Shown here: positions 4,784-11,119 of the stretch, one piece after another
Layout of the letters: every line of letters starts with the position of its first letter
How positions within the stretch are numbered: position 1 is the first letter of the stretch
From: Desulfobacterales bacterium
GTDB lineage: Bacteria; Desulfobacterota; Desulfobacteria; Desulfobacterales; JAHEIW01
Direction of reading: 5' to 3'
DNA length: 64,000 nt
Assembly (NCBI GenBank): GCA_030066985.1
Contig: JASJAN010000007.1
Span: forward strand, 1 to 64,000
Notes under the pieces: model-generated
What the model was told of the DNA's origin: nothing
The model's database searches: none
The model's input: the letters and a program-made list of their open reading frames with translations, nothing else
Program-made: the position numbers and the translations under genes

Positions 4784-6241
4784 TTACTTAAGAAATGAAA
4801 GGCGGGTTCTGAGATTTTCCTTGGTTCTATTTAATCCCAGTTTTTTACGAATGTTTCTTCTGTGGAACTCGATCGTTTTCGGAGAAAGATTCATTATTGT
4901 GGCAATTTCTTTGCTTGTATTGCCCTGTTTGATTTGGTTTGCGATTTTAATTTCCTGAGGGGTTAAACGGTAATAACTTGACGAAAAATTCCGGGCGAAG
5001 GGGGAGACGATATTATTTAAATTCGTTTGAATTATTTCCAGATAGGCTTTTTGTCTTTCACTAAGGCCACCATTTTGAAGTTTTTCAAGATAAGGTTTAA
5101 TTAAGGATTTTACGTTTGAAAGTATATTGTCTTCAAGTTCATTTTTTTCTTCCTCTATTTTTTTTAACAAGACCTTGAGGGCGGCATTAAGCTCTTCCAG
5201 ATCACGTGCTTTGGATTCCAGCTCTTTGTCTTTTAATTTTAAAGCCTCTTCAGATCGTTTACGTTTGGTAATATCAATTAATATTCCGTTAACGTATCTG
5301 TTCCAACCTTTTTCGTTCTTACCTCCGGTTGAAATTCCATGAATCCAGCGCCATTCACCTCTATCTTTGTGATACGTTCTATATTCCTCATTGAAACGGT
5401 TGGTTTTGAATGCTCGTTGGTTAGCTTCAGATAATCTTTTCACGTCATCGGGGTGCGCATTTTCAAACCATGTCTCAAATTTCATCGGCTCTGGAATACC
5501 CAATATCGTTTTAGCTGAAGGACTTATAAATTTAATCCTGAGCTTATGGGGACTTTTTCCATCACTAACTAACCGGTAGATGGCAAAATTTGTTGCACTC
5601 TCCATTAGCGATTCGAGATGCTCTACACTCTCTTGAAGTGCATCCCTTGTTTTTAACCGGCCAATGGCACCTCCAATTTGAGCAACTACCGCCTCGATAG
5701 CAATTCGAACTGGTAAAGGTATGTCCTCCACACTGTGGGAAGCAAGGTTCATACACCCTACTACTTTTCCTTCGTCTAACAACGGCAAAGTCATGAAGGC
5801 TCGGATTCCCTCACGTTGTTCCTCCGGAGTCAACGAAACCTCCAAATCTTTGTGTGAGATATAGGCTGGTTTACCCTTCTTTACATATAATGAATTATCT
5901 GAGTTTTTGTCATAGTGAGAAACGGCTTGGACAAATTCCTCAGATAATCCTTGGTGGACTATTAGATTTAAATCTTCGTTTCGTTTATCAAAAAGATAAA
6001 TTCCACCACAATCCATACCAGACATTTGTATGCTGATCTGAAGACTTATGTGTAATCCCTTTGTTAAATCACTAGTTGAAGCGATCGAAACGGATAGATT
6101 CCGCTGATATTCCATCAGCTTTTTTGACTGTTTGTATTCATTTTCTCTTTGTAAGAATAGTTCGTTTGTTTTTGCTGCTTCATTTGTTCGTTTTTCCAGC
6201 AATTCTTCAAGTTCTTCATACGTTGGCTTTATGGTCATCAA
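4784..6241 (-). CDS. Cytoplasmic GAF-PAS-LuxR sensor-regulator
   Basis: 485 residues with a GAF domain at about 45-195, a PAS domain (PAS_3 type, about 215-330, closing with the GILIDITKRKRSEE linker), a coiled coil at about 333-375 and a LuxR/FixJ helix-turn-helix at about 422-480 (LTPQEIKIANQIKQGNTSKE, then IATIMNLSPKTIEFHRRNI). No membrane segments, so it probably senses a soluble ligand or redox state and acts directly on DNA. The start ATG at 6241 has AGAGGA 6-7 nt upstream; a second ATG follows immediately. It is monocistronic. The target genes are unknown; no kinase partner is adjacent. Confidence 0.8.
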   Translation of the reverse strand: MMTIKPTYEELEELLEKRTNEAAKTNELFLQRENEYKQSKKLMEYQRNLSVSIASTSDLTKGLHISLQISIQMSGMDCGGIYLFDKRNEDLNLIVHQGLSEEFVQAVSHYDKNSDNSLYVKKGKPAYISHKDLEVSLTPEEQREGIRAFMTLPLLDEGKVVGCMNLASHSVEDIPLPVRIAIEAVVAQIGGAIGRLKTRDALQESVEHLESLMESATNFAIYRLVSDGKSPHKLRIKFISPSAKTILGIPEPMKFETWFENAHPDDVKRLSEANQRAFKTNRFNEEYRTYHKDRGEWRWIHGISTGGKNEKGWNRYVNGILIDITKRKRSEEALKLKDKELESKARDLEELNAALKVLLKKIEEEKNELEDNILSNVKSLIKPYLEKLQNGGLSERQKAYLEIIQTNLNNIVSPFARNFSSSYYRLTPQEIKIANQIKQGNTSKEIATIMNLSPKTIEFHRRNIRKKLGLNRTKENLRTRLSFLK

Positions 6242-6554: not shown

Positions 6555-8603
6555 TTAGCTTCCCAGCCTGCCGTGGGCTTCCAGTTCATCGGCTACGTAT
6601 GACAATTCAAGCGATTGGAGGGTGTTCCGCTTCGGCCATCCCGTGTTGGGATCCCAACCCTCGAAATTATAATACCGGGTTTTGAAATCGTCGAATTTAT
6701 CGCGATCGTGACACCGGTAGCTGACCAAAAGCCAATCCCATTTCCCGTTTTTTCGGCCGGGCAGATAATAGGAACGATGATTAAAAGGACTTGGTTCTTT
6801 AACGTTGTAAATATAGTCGGAAAAATGCACCATGTCCCGGTGACGACCCTGCAGAGTCCAGATGGCGTTGTCGAGATTCCATATTTTTCTTCCCATTTCC
6901 ATACCGTCGACAAAGCTATAATTGTTACCCGTCACATCGTTGAAGAATCGTTGTTCTCCTTCGCCTGTGCACCCCAGATAATCCTTTGTTCGACCACAAA
7001 CAAATTGCGGCCATTTGTGATCACAATATAGCACGGATTGTTTCCAGAATCGGGTATAGCGTCTCTGCCAGGCTACCAGTTTGATCATATGATCCGAGTA
7101 GATGTTCTCATCACTGTAATCGAGCATCAACGGGTCTCCTTGGAAAGGAAACAGCTTGCTGCTAAAGGCGTTCACAAATGATTCGGCGGGTACCGGAACC
7201 TTTTTTCCGTGATCTTTGAAAGACTTGGCGTACCAAAATAGTAACGTAAATTCGTGTTCGTTGCAGTCCCGATCGCCCAGGATCGTGCTGTATCCCCAGC
7301 AGACCTGACTTCTGGGATCGTAACCATGTTCGGGTAGTCCCCAGTACGGGTACAAAAGCAAACCGGTTTTCAGATCCTGCTCCAACCGCCCCCATCTTTG
7401 AGCTGCACGGTAAAATCCCTCGGCCATGTCGTCGCCGATGCCTTCTCGATTGCTGATCATTCCTACGAACTTCTCGGCAAATTCAACTGTACCCAACCTG
7501 CTAAAATCAAGGTCGCTGTCGATTTTCCTACCAGGGCCCAGCACGCCCTTTTTAGCCAGCGCTAAAATATAAGGCAGACCGCGCAAAGCTTCATAGGCAT
7601 TGACACCCTGTTTCTGTAGCAAATCCGTTGCGATGTAAGACGCATTCGTCTGCCTCCAGTGTTTCCTTTTGTCGGCCCAGGTGTAGAAAACCGTTTCGGC
7701 GCAGGTCGAATCGGTCCCCATCCCGGATGAATTCCTTTCCTGGCAACCGGCATGGCAGCCCACACATGCGTGAATGCGGGCGTTTTTGTCGCCTTTCCAG
7801 AGATAAATAAGCGGCCTTTCCTTGCCGCGTTGATGATCGACATTGAAAGCGTATTCCTTGTTCGCCCAGATACGGGATTCCATCAAGGCGTTCGGATCCG
7901 AGACCTTGACGCTGCCCGTTCCGATAACGCTGATAGCTTTGAGGTTTTTCGATCCCCACACACCACCGAATCCCCCTTGGCCCGAAGCGTTGGCTACGTC
8001 GTGAATAAGACAGGCGATCCGTCCCAGGTTCTCTCCTGCCGGTCCGATGGTGAGAACGGCCGGTTTTTGGGTCGTTCTGGCCTCGGAATCCTTTCCGCCG
8101 ACTTTCATCCAGTCGCCAAAGGCCTGGCCTTCCATCACTTCAGCCCATATCTTCTCCTGGGTCTGCCAGGTATCCAAACCCCACAGATGCCCGGCGTCTT
8201 TAATCCGGACCTTGTCGTTTCTGATATCGATCCAGACCGGTTTGTCCGCTTTTCCCTCGACAACGATGCCGTCCCAGCCCGCGTATTTTAGCATGGGAGC
8301 AAATCTGCCCCCGAAATTGCTCCGGGTAAACCATTCAACGGGGAAAGACTGCACTCCGATTCCTTGCACCTCCGTTCGTGCGGAGGCACCAGGGACCAGG
8401 GTTCCGGATAAGGGAGACGTCATAATCGTTACGATGTTTGCGGGCTCGAATCCACTGATGGCCTTGTTCTTTACCAGATCCCAAAAAATGGCCGAACCCA
8501 TTCCATGCCCCCCGCCCCATTGTTGATATTTTTCGGTATTGATAATAGAAATCTTTCCGGCGGTAAGATTCAGCCTCAGTATTTTACCTGTATATCCATT
8601 CAT
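6555..8603 (-). CDS. Tungsten-type aldehyde:ferredoxin oxidoreductase family protein
   Basis: 682 residues from the start chosen here, MNGYTGKILRLNLTAG, the usual N-terminus of the family; an upstream in-frame ATG at 8666 would add 21 residues unlike the family. Visible features are WGGGHGMGSA (29-38), the cofactor-domain stretch GQGGFGGVWGSKNLKA near 208-223, and the [4Fe-4S] cysteines C280, C283 and C287 in CVGCHAGC, with a fourth ligand probably among C527, C536 and C545. The family oxidises aldehydes to acids, or reduces acids, on a bis-pyranopterin tungsten site. BamB of benzoyl-CoA reductase belongs to the same superfamily and also travels with Fe-S partners, so the substrate cannot be set from sequence alone. 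It lies about 110 bp downstream of the Fe-S protein gene on the same strand, probably one operon. No cofactor-synthesis genes are nearby. Confidence 0.88.
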   Translation of the reverse strand: MNGYTGKILRLNLTAGKISIINTEKYQQWGGGHGMGSAIFWDLVKNKAISGFEPANIVTIMTSPLSGTLVPGASARTEVQGIGVQSFPVEWFTRSNFGGRFAPMLKYAGWDGIVVEGKADKPVWIDIRNDKVRIKDAGHLWGLDTWQTQEKIWAEVMEGQAFGDWMKVGGKDSEARTTQKPAVLTIGPAGENLGRIACLIHDVANASGQGGFGGVWGSKNLKAISVIGTGSVKVSDPNALMESRIWANKEYAFNVDHQRGKERPLIYLWKGDKNARIHACVGCHAGCQERNSSGMGTDSTCAETVFYTWADKRKHWRQTNASYIATDLLQKQGVNAYEALRGLPYILALAKKGVLGPGRKIDSDLDFSRLGTVEFAEKFVGMISNREGIGDDMAEGFYRAAQRWGRLEQDLKTGLLLYPYWGLPEHGYDPRSQVCWGYSTILGDRDCNEHEFTLLFWYAKSFKDHGKKVPVPAESFVNAFSSKLFPFQGDPLMLDYSDENIYSDHMIKLVAWQRRYTRFWKQSVLYCDHKWPQFVCGRTKDYLGCTGEGEQRFFNDVTGNNYSFVDGMEMGRKIWNLDNAIWTLQGRHRDMVHFSDYIYNVKEPSPFNHRSYYLPGRKNGKWDWLLVSYRCHDRDKFDDFKTRYYNFEGWDPNTGWPKRNTLQSLELSYVADELEAHGRLGS

Positions 8604-8712
8604 AATATTGGTCTCATAGTAACTCGAAAGTCTTGAGTTCTTCCGTCCTTGCGAGGAGCAAGGCACGGGCGATGTGGCTCCCAGTTATAGATTATGGTCA
8701 ACGCTGGACGTT

Positions 8713-9432
8713 TCAACGTCTCGAGTATCCGAGATTCTCCCAGCCATCTCCTCTGAGATTGACGTGGTATCCCTCGTCCCCTTCCTGAACGGGTATCTTT
8801 TTCGTGAACTTAATGGCGCCCAGTGGACATATTTCGACACAGGCTTGCAAACCGGCCGGTCCCCCTTCTCGGTTCCAGTGCGGGGTATCAGCGCAAAGGT
8901 CGCATTTTTGAGCGCGGGCCTCCTGAAAATTCCAGACAGCCCGGCTGGGCTCGTAGGGGCAGGCCTCCACGCATTGCATGCAGCCGATTTATTTTTCAGC
9001 GTAGATTCTTCTGACGTTCCCATGCTCGACATCGACCGTCAGCGCTTCCTCGAGGCAGGCTTCCAAGCAGGCGGGATCAACGCATTGTCTGCACTGCTCT
9101 AAAGTCAAATCATCCGGAAATTTTCCAAACGGGTTCTGGATTATCTGTATCCTGGCCAGTGACAAATTCTCTTCTCCATCATGGACCAGAGAACAAGCAA
9201 GCATGCAAGACATACAGCCTTGACATTTTTTTGTGTCGACCAGCAGATATCCCTCGGATACGGGGATCCCGGACTTTCCATCCTCCAACATTACAAGGGA
9301 CTCCAACCTCTCACCGGAGTCACAACCAGCAACGCCGATCAAGACCACAACGCCCCCAGCCCTTTTTAAAAAAGTCCGGCGAGATATTCCAATATCTGCT
9401 TTGTGGGGTTTTTGACTTCCTTGATCTTTCGT
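8713..9432 (-). pseudogene. Tat-signal polyferredoxin (DmsB-like), start codon ACG and internal TAA
   Basis: A single reading frame from 9432 to 8713 encodes about 240 codons: a twin-arginine signal SRRTFLK (codons 17-23), a hydrophobic stretch ending in a lipobox-like VAGC, then four [4Fe-4S] motifs: CQGCMSCMLAC, CRQCVDPACLEAC, a third reading xIGCMQCVEACP, and CDLC...CVEICP. It would carry electrons for the adjacent aldehyde oxidoreductase. Two lesions are visible. No ATG, GTG or TTG lies upstream of the Tat signal; ACG at 9432 sits where a start is expected, with AGGA 6 nt upstream. The codon for the first cysteine of the third motif is TAA (8989-8991), in frame, with no frameshift. Either the gene is decayed, or two polypeptides are made (GTG at 9348 and ATG at 8979 could restart), with loss of the signal and one ligand. 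Confidence 0.75.
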
Positions 9433-10030
9433 GGGTTATCCTATTGAATTGATCAAGTTTTAGATTGTAGATTTCGGACAAGAAGTGAATTATTGCTAAT
9501 ATTCTGAGGATCCTAAGGAATCCGTTTTTCAAAGTCAAGAGGTTGTGCTCATTTTCTCAAATTTAAGTTGGATATTATAAAATCAACTCCATACACCAAC
9601 AATGTAGCTAATGCTGACTATAAATTAGCTAGGGCTTATACACATTTTTTTTAGTCTCGATTTATTTTAGGTTTCGTGCCTTCTCCTAAAATGATGAAAA
9701 TGTAGAGAATGCATATCAATATGTACACGGTTTATAAATTATATTTTTAGCGAGCCACCACATTATATAATGGTACCGCATACTGGAGAGGGAATAGGGG
9801 ATATGGATCGTATATCGCAATTAATTCAAAGCGTTTCAAAATACCGATTCATACAGCCATTTCTTAATTATGTGAAGGATTCACGAACTCATGTATCTGA
9901 AAAATCGCCCGTTGAAAAGCATTGTTATGGTAAAAGGATTTGATATTTAAGAAGCAGCTGATTAGTTGTGATTCTATATTGTCAATCGAAATCTTGACTC
10001 ACATTCCAAATCTGTCAAACCAAGTACAGA
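9433..10030. other. About 600-bp AT-rich gap
   Basis: This lies between the polyferredoxin gene and the stop of the OYE gene, both minus strand. It contains a CCATTATATAATGG-type small palindrome near 9758 and one short plus-strand frame (9803-9943, listed separately). No RNA gene is recognised. Confidence 0.4.
9803..9943 (+). CDS. Possible 46-residue small ORF
   Basis: ATG at 9803 follows a purine-rich GGAGAGGGAATAGGGG, which could serve as ribosome site. The frame encodes MDRISQLIQSVSKYRFIQPF and ends at 9941-9943. The product is short, basic and has one cysteine. It lies alone on its strand in an AT-rich gap, and I recognise no homologue. It may be the remnant of a longer gene. Confidence 0.22.
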   Translation: MDRISQLIQSVSKYRFIQPFLNYVKDSRTHVSEKSPVEKHCYGKRI

Positions 10031-11119
10031 TTATTGCAGATAAGGTTTGTAATCCGTATACCCTTTAGCTCCCGGAGTATACCATAATGACATATCGTCA
10101 AAGGCCGTCAGGGGCCAGTTGCTCTTCAAACGCTCAGGCAGGTCCGGATTGGTGATGAAAGGGCGGCCGAAGGCCGCCAGATCCGCGTGGCCAGCTGAGA
10201 GCCTCTCTTCTGCTGTTTCCTTGGTGTAACCGCAATTGCCCATGATAATGCCGTCATATTCAGCCCGAAATTCAGCCAGCGCCATCGGCTCTCCCTGTTC
10301 ATGAAAACCAAAAGCAAGCCCATCCATGATGTGAACATATGCCAGATTCAATTTATTGAGCTCTTTTATGGTGTAGAGAAATGTATCTCGAAAATCAGGA
10401 CTGCCCATATCGTTGAACACGCCATTGGGAGAAAGACGGATACCCACCCGGTTTGACGGCCATACCGCCAGAACAGCCGCCATCACTTCTCTTAAAAAAC
10501 GATACTTGTTCTCTAAATTGCCGCCGTAATCGTCGGTCCTTAAATTCGTTTTTGAGTCCAGAAATTGATTGAGCAGATAGCCATTGGCGCTATGAACTTC
10601 GACACCGCTGAAACCGGCTTGTTTGGCATTTTGGGCAGCCTTTCGATAATCTTTCACAGTGGCCTTGATGTCATCAATTGTCATGGCCCGTGGGGTTTCG
10701 TAATCTTTTTTCCCAAGCGGCGTGTGAATCTGATCACCGTTAAGTTTTACCGCTGAGGCTGAAACCGGCAGTGCGCCATCGTGAAAGTCGCTGTGGGATG
10801 CCCGGCCGCAATGCCATAGTTGCAAAAAGATGGGCGTGCCGGTGGGCTTTAGCTTCTGGGTGACGATTTGCCAGCCCTCCACCATCTTATCGGTATAAAT
10901 GCCCGGTGAGCCCACCCAACCGTTGCCCTGGGCGGAAATGACGGTTGCTTCGGTAATCAACAAGCCGGCTGAAGCCCGTTGGAAATAGTATTCGGCCATC
11001 AGCGCATTCGCAATGCGCTCCGCACCTGCACGTCCCCTGGTCATGGGTGCCATTACGATTCTGTTTTTAAGCTTTAGGTCTCCCAACTGCAATGGTTCAA
11101 ACAGCTTGTGGTTCGTCAT
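10031..11119 (-). CDS. Old Yellow Enzyme family alkene reductase (NemA-like)
   Basis: 362 residues, the full length of the OYE (beta/alpha)8 flavoenzymes. It starts LFEPLQLGDLKLKNRIVMAP, the typical first strand binding FMN. The active-site pair is HSAN near 175, and YGGNLENKYRFLREV and AFGRPFITNPDL are both strongly conserved in the family. It should reduce activated C=C bonds such as enones or maleimides with NAD(P)H in the cytoplasm. AGGAGA lies 7 nt upstream of ATG 11119. It is monocistronic, upstream of the polyferredoxin region on the same strand but 600 bp away, so co-transcription is unlikely. Confidence 0.92.
   Translation of the reverse strand: MTNHKLFEPLQLGDLKLKNRIVMAPMTRGRAGAERIANALMAEYYFQRASAGLLITEATVISAQGNGWVGSPGIYTDKMVEGWQIVTQKLKPTGTPIFLQLWHCGRASHSDFHDGALPVSASAVKLNGDQIHTPLGKKDYETPRAMTIDDIKATVKDYRKAAQNAKQAGFSGVEVHSANGYLLNQFLDSKTNLRTDDYGGNLENKYRFLREVMAAVLAVWPSNRVGIRLSPNGVFNDMGSPDFRDTFLYTIKELNKLNLAYVHIMDGLAFGFHEQGEPMALAEFRAEYDGIIMGNCGYTKETAEERLSAGHADLAAFGRPFITNPDLPERLKSNWPLTAFDDMSLWYTPGAKGYTDYKPYLQ

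Follow-up and report, generated by a model that had tools for sequence, protein, structure and literature searches.

A polyferredoxin gene that has probably been lost recently

We find that a gene for a WorS-like small subunit carries an ACG in the place of its start codon and a TAA in the place of a cluster cysteine, and we consider it probable that both lesions arose recently by mutation and put the gene out of action in this lineage. The frame lies on the minus strand at 8713..9432 of the window (the whole stretch of 64,000 nucleotides that was analysed), contains a predicted Tat motif and four Cys4 motifs, and stands beside an intact gene for a WorL-like large subunit. Judged by sequence, the two form an aldehyde-ferredoxin-oxidoreductase-type pair of a small Fe-S subunit and a large subunit, from an oxidoreductase of the tungsten or molybdenum type. 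Recent decay, as the original prediction had proposed, is the reading best supported by our results: the lesions are private, the rest of the frame is intact, and the gene thereby presents what is expected of a pseudogene, namely disabling lesions that its homologues lack.

An in-frame TAA at a cluster cysteine

The frame runs from ACG (9432-9430) to TGA (8715-8713), a span of 240 codons with a single internal stop, and translation confirmed the earlier claim that it is unbroken between ACG 9432 and the stop at 8713 except for the TAA at 8989-8991. A frame shift or an assembly join within the gene was rejected on account of this continuity. The TAA (8989..8991, minus strand) is codon 148 and occupies the position of the first cysteine of the third cluster motif, where the translation reads RRIYAEK, the stop, and then IGCMQCVEACPY. 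The remaining ligands are intact, as had been predicted, only one of the 16 cluster positions in the four Cys motifs being a stop codon.

Two bases separate TAA from either Cys codon, which is slightly unusual. One slippage event is a possible origin, because the TAA turns the run around it into a direct AAAT repeat; another is an initial stop that later changed into a different stop codon. By counting, 17 of the 108 single-base nonsense changes available to the gene hit Cys codons, with the TAA codon taken as one Cys and with one of the 17 being a signal-region Cys that is not a ligand. The stop's position on a Cys codon is therefore weak evidence of anything special, about one in six being expected there.

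A predicted Tat signal without a usual start codon

At the position of the start codon stands ACG (9430..9432, minus strand), with AGGA, a possible ribosome-binding site, 6 nt ahead of it (9439..9442, minus strand). Downstream, the twin-arginine motif SRRTFLK (9364..9384, minus strand) aligns with a similar motif in most relatives and is followed by a hydrophobic stretch, so that the region is predicted to encode a Tat signal that lacks a usual start codon. Both elements cited in the original prediction for the placement of ACG, the AGGA before it and the Tat motif after it, are thus present, and its statement that no ATG, GTG or TTG lies in frame upstream of the signal also holds, the first usual start codon being GTG 9348, within the signal peptide. 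A TAA lies in frame two codons ahead of ACG, such that the open frame starts CCC ACG, and among the start-like codons looked for, only ACG, ATT and ATA were found in the window row. In all 25 other loci compared (L064 apparently duplicating L015) a usual in-frame start, ATG, GTG or TTG, is found near the start. ACG is a very weak start codon. A paper search for ACG or all-codon initiation in bacteria found no usable literature.

The RNA of the start region is predicted to fold little better than shuffled sequences (z -1.35). A scan for promoters and terminators was uninformative, because the site counts were close to those of shuffles (3 promoter sites against 3.6; 1 terminator site against 1.2); TTGACT-17-TAGGAT at 9538-9510 is only a possibility as a promoter. 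In three other loci (L063, L076 and L077) the small subunit seems by eye to be without a Tat motif, and two of these, L063 and L077, have in common an upstream gene of ~470 aa with a similar N-terminal sequence.

Both lesions are private among the loci compared

A homologue search at E <= 1e-30 across 95 other genomes of the same order matched 6. When the query carried X at the stop, a search of 388 other genomes of the order (E <= 1e-40) gave 15 other places, spread over 14 genomes and with 50-63% identity, and none of these places has an internal stop. A class-level search likewise matched 14 of 388 other genomes, 13 of which were shared with the order-level sampling, and all 15 other places there were free of internal stops; both searches scored 7 first-look candidates per genome. 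A species-level genome collection gave 10 loci of the pair. Of 25 other loci searched for the two genes, 24 gave matches to both; in L021, the one exception, the contig breaks off within the ferredoxin gene.

The alignment called for in the original prediction shows that the column of the TAA, which had been said to fall on the first cysteine of a cluster motif, is indeed Cys in 23 of 23 other rows. This alignment left out the distant L022, L064 (which seems to be L015 again) and L136; in L022 the column is also Cys, as judged by eye. Homologues conserving the same stop would have spoken against decay, and there are none among those aligned or matched. The stop is thus not normal for the family, and from the uniform cysteine and the usual starts of all 25 loci it follows that, among the genomes seen, neither the stop nor the lack of a usual start occurs in any but this one.

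Several relatives have further genes at the locus. In L013 (8816-9193), L016 (3477-3824) and L017 (8755-9129) the large subunit has a small conserved protein of ~120 aa as its neighbour, and a membrane-type protein of ~300 aa is encoded upstream in both L013 and L017. Neither accessory candidate has a match in the window.

No relaxation is seen in the remainder of the gene

We compared 20 full-length rows, omitting L063, L076, L021 and L077 as short or N-terminally different. Among 57 columns invariant in the 19 other full-length homologues, the WorS of the window departs at one, and that one is the TAA. The other 56 show no changes over about 131.7 nonsynonymous sites, from which the neutral changes per site accumulated after the loss are bounded at 0.023 (approximate upper 95% limit; ~2% divergence); the limit is approximate because invariant columns are treated as wholly intolerant of change and 9 of the 20 rows are also without departures. 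Beyond the TAA and the start, there is thus no sign of further decay at invariant columns. With the tree fixed for 22 rows, the window's terminal branch measures 0.311 in WorS and 0.412 in WorL. The resulting WorS/WorL ratio of 0.75 is the third lowest of the 22, and that of the whole tree is 1.10. The sequence comparison therefore shows no sign of relaxation or acceleration in WorS and suggests that, if the gene is dead, it died very recently.

Matching stretches of the flank longer than 100 bases have 79-85% DNA identity to the same-genus genome G002. Set against the bound of ~2%, this places the loss, if real, long after the split from G002. At the bound of 0.023, ~0.8 nonsense changes would be expected across the gene, and we estimate at only ~1-2% the chance that a second change hits one particular base within the neutral period.

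The large subunit is intact

The WorL-like gene (6555..8603, minus strand) encodes 682 aa with AFOR_N and AFOR_C domains (PF02730, 179.1 bits; PF01314, 87.3 bits; both above cut-off), and departs at 1 of 118 invariant columns. A spacer of 109 nt separates it from the WorS-like frame; its RNA folds little better than shuffles (z -1.03), and two small hairpins occur in it at 8620-8668. Residue 536 of WorL (codon 6996-6998, minus strand) is Cys in the window and Asn in 21 of 21 other aligned WorL sequences. It lies nine residues past the invariant Cys 527, and a further Cys follows nine residues after 536, where the rows shown have other residues. We regard it as very improbable that WorL has been altered to work without WorS or with another partner, and that the loss of WorS was tolerated on that account.

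Genomic context

The genome (G000) contains 18 AFOR_N matches, that is, 17 besides WorL, seemingly a large number for one genome, and 17 Fer4_11 places in all, so that other Fer4_11 proteins are present; a search with the N-terminal half of WorS found no paralogue closer than one of 40% identity. We infer from the AFOR_N count that the loss of one small subunit would be easily tolerated. The original prediction held that, if the gene is dead, the aldehyde oxidoreductase has lost its electron partner or uses another. This stands insofar as its dedicated partner is interrupted; it does not follow that the enzyme lacks any partner, given the 18 AFOR_N matches and the other Fer4_11 proteins.

The WorS and WorL genes were found, at the thresholds used, in none of three same-genus genomes (one of them 79% complete). 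From these sequence searches the unit seems to be patchily distributed, gained here or lost in the same-genus genomes, and its absence there makes it look dispensable. Gene order in G002 is the same from the ketoacyl-synthase-like gene through the old-yellow-enzyme-type gene. Similarity ceases near window position 10040, at the end of the latter gene, and the G002 contig ends ~0.8 kb beyond that point; a DNA comparison with G002 gave no match for the region 11.3-14.1 kb. The 600 bases past ~10040 are A+T-rich (~34% G+C) and without a clear gene. The neighbours of the pair are a GAF/PAS/LuxR-type regulator (4784-6241) and a protein of the N-ethylmaleimide-reductase/old-yellow-enzyme type (10031-11119), neither of which is a candidate for a third subunit. 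A search of a plasmid collection with 8500-9700 gave no match, and over 8500-10100 no Rfam family reached its gathering score.

Alternative explanations

What counts against recent loss is that the TAA needs a double change, or a stop and then a second change within a short neutral period. A literature search found no report of premature stops in metagenome-assembled Desulfobacterota. A living gene with a miscall would look as this one does, its frame showing perfect conservation elsewhere and no acceleration; furthermore, the TAA sits in an A/T-rich run (AAAAATAAAT), and the genome is a draft in 81 contigs, 97.79% complete and with 2.89% contamination. That the bases are wrong, through a consensus error or a strain mixture in this draft, is nevertheless rather unlikely, for two separate places would have to be wrong, one of them with two bases. 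In addition, internal stops elsewhere are few: 0 of 18 AFOR_N places, 1 of 17 Fer4_11 places (the worS-like gene itself) and 1 of 104 ABC_tran places, where 150 of 201 first-look ABC_tran candidates were scored and some places in these families are pieces of one gene. These counts argue against a generally error-rich assembly, though not decisively at the two positions themselves.

The gene might also be alive with its stop in place. ATG 8979 lies 9 nt past the TAA and opens an 88-aa frame (8713..8979, minus strand) whose status as a separate protein is unsupported; a terminating ribosome could restart there, and conserved residues are kept in both halves. However, this ATG is inside the third cluster motif, a restart would lose two of the motif's ligands, and split homologues are absent from the 15 other places of the order-level search and the 15 of the class-level search, so that the two shorter polypeptides entertained in the original prediction are not borne out. 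Low-rate readthrough with another residue would call for a suppressor tRNA, and none appeared among the tRNA candidates scored: in a genome 97.79% complete, with 150 of 249 first-look candidates scored, there were at least 43 tRNA matches and a tRNA-Sec, and ARAGORN gave none of them the anticodon TTA or CTA. The structure predicted for the read-through WorS is poor (mean pLDDT 45.2, 13 sequences) and plays no part in this argument. We judge it improbable that either route leaves a modified or scarce WorS that still works. Recoding of the UAA, for example as selenocysteine or cysteine, can draw on the tRNA-Sec (75.2 bits), and a Sec site is usually recognised by Cys in homologues. Yet this tRNA has the anticodon TCA and reads UGA, so that a selenoprotein gene would carry an in-frame UGA where this one has UAA; a tRNA with anticodon TTA is absent among the matches; the 63-nt stretch that starts 6 nt ahead of the stop, where a SECIS stem-loop would be sought, is no more stably folded than shuffled sequences (z -0.67); the aligned homologues are all free of a stop at this column; and the ACG start would be left unexplained. 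Taken together, these points make recoding scarcely credible. RNA editing of the UAA to a Cys codon was rejected, no single RNA edit being known to make this conversion.

Discussion

In intact relatives, as judged from the family, WorL, with its pterin site and Fe-S cluster, most likely exchanges electrons with the four clusters in WorS. With the worS-like gene inactivated, a ribosome starting at ACG would yield a fragment of 147 residues, comprising the Tat signal and cluster motifs one and two. In the four-cluster ferredoxin-type fold, Cys motifs share clusters in pairs, and because of this pairing the fragment would be unable to hold a complete chain of four clusters. This would deprive WorL of its dedicated exported electron conduit, and the enzyme might be idle, be served in trans by another Fe-S protein, or be on its way out.

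If real, the locus offers a snapshot of the first step in losing a two-gene redox unit, in which the conduit goes before the catalytic subunit, and a natural test of whether a large subunit of this kind has any function in the absence of the small one. It also carries a warning for annotation, as an intact large subunit should not be taken for a working complex. Otherwise this is probably an ordinary pseudogene, early in its decay, and its stop at a Cys codon is nothing remarkable.

Comparison with known systems

The closest described group is the Class V tungsten-containing oxidoreductases, in which WorL is accompanied by a Tat-tagged WorS, as in E. coli YdhV/YdhY and C. somerae WOR41 (PMC13328260). 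The holders listed for the class include sulfate-reducing Desulfobacterota, and every Class V enzyme is there given at least one additional subunit (PMC13328260). As in this description, the WorL of the locus has both AFOR domains, and its WorS has a twin-arginine motif and four Cys4 motifs. Unlike in Class V as described there, the WorS of the locus is interrupted and falls short of four [4Fe-4S] clusters, and beside the pair, within the window, no gene for a third subunit is recognised. For these two reasons we do not file the locus as Class V. Nor can a substrate be named, because PMC13328260 assigns the class neither an activity nor a physiological role; "aldehyde" in the family name is no evidence of a substrate. 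The match of WorL to the NCBIfam model NF007354 reaches 229.3 bits against a cut-off of 868.

The best solved relatives of WorS are the small subunits of WOR structures 8c0z (chain C), 9mqx (chain E), and 6x6u and 6x1o (chain B), matched by profile A1, into which the window row was entered with Cys at the stop, at E 1.8e-24 to 9.5e-21. These are complete proteins from other organisms. All four alignments shown have Cys opposite the TAA; they start past the signal-peptide region, and a Tat counterpart is not seen in them. With electron-transfer subunits of the NrfC/DmsB/HybA type, which also carry four clusters, WorS shares a general cluster-binding domain, and its NCBIfam scores are far under the curated cut-offs (best 81.5 against 263). 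In contrast to that type, the gene neighbour of WorS here encodes an AFOR protein.
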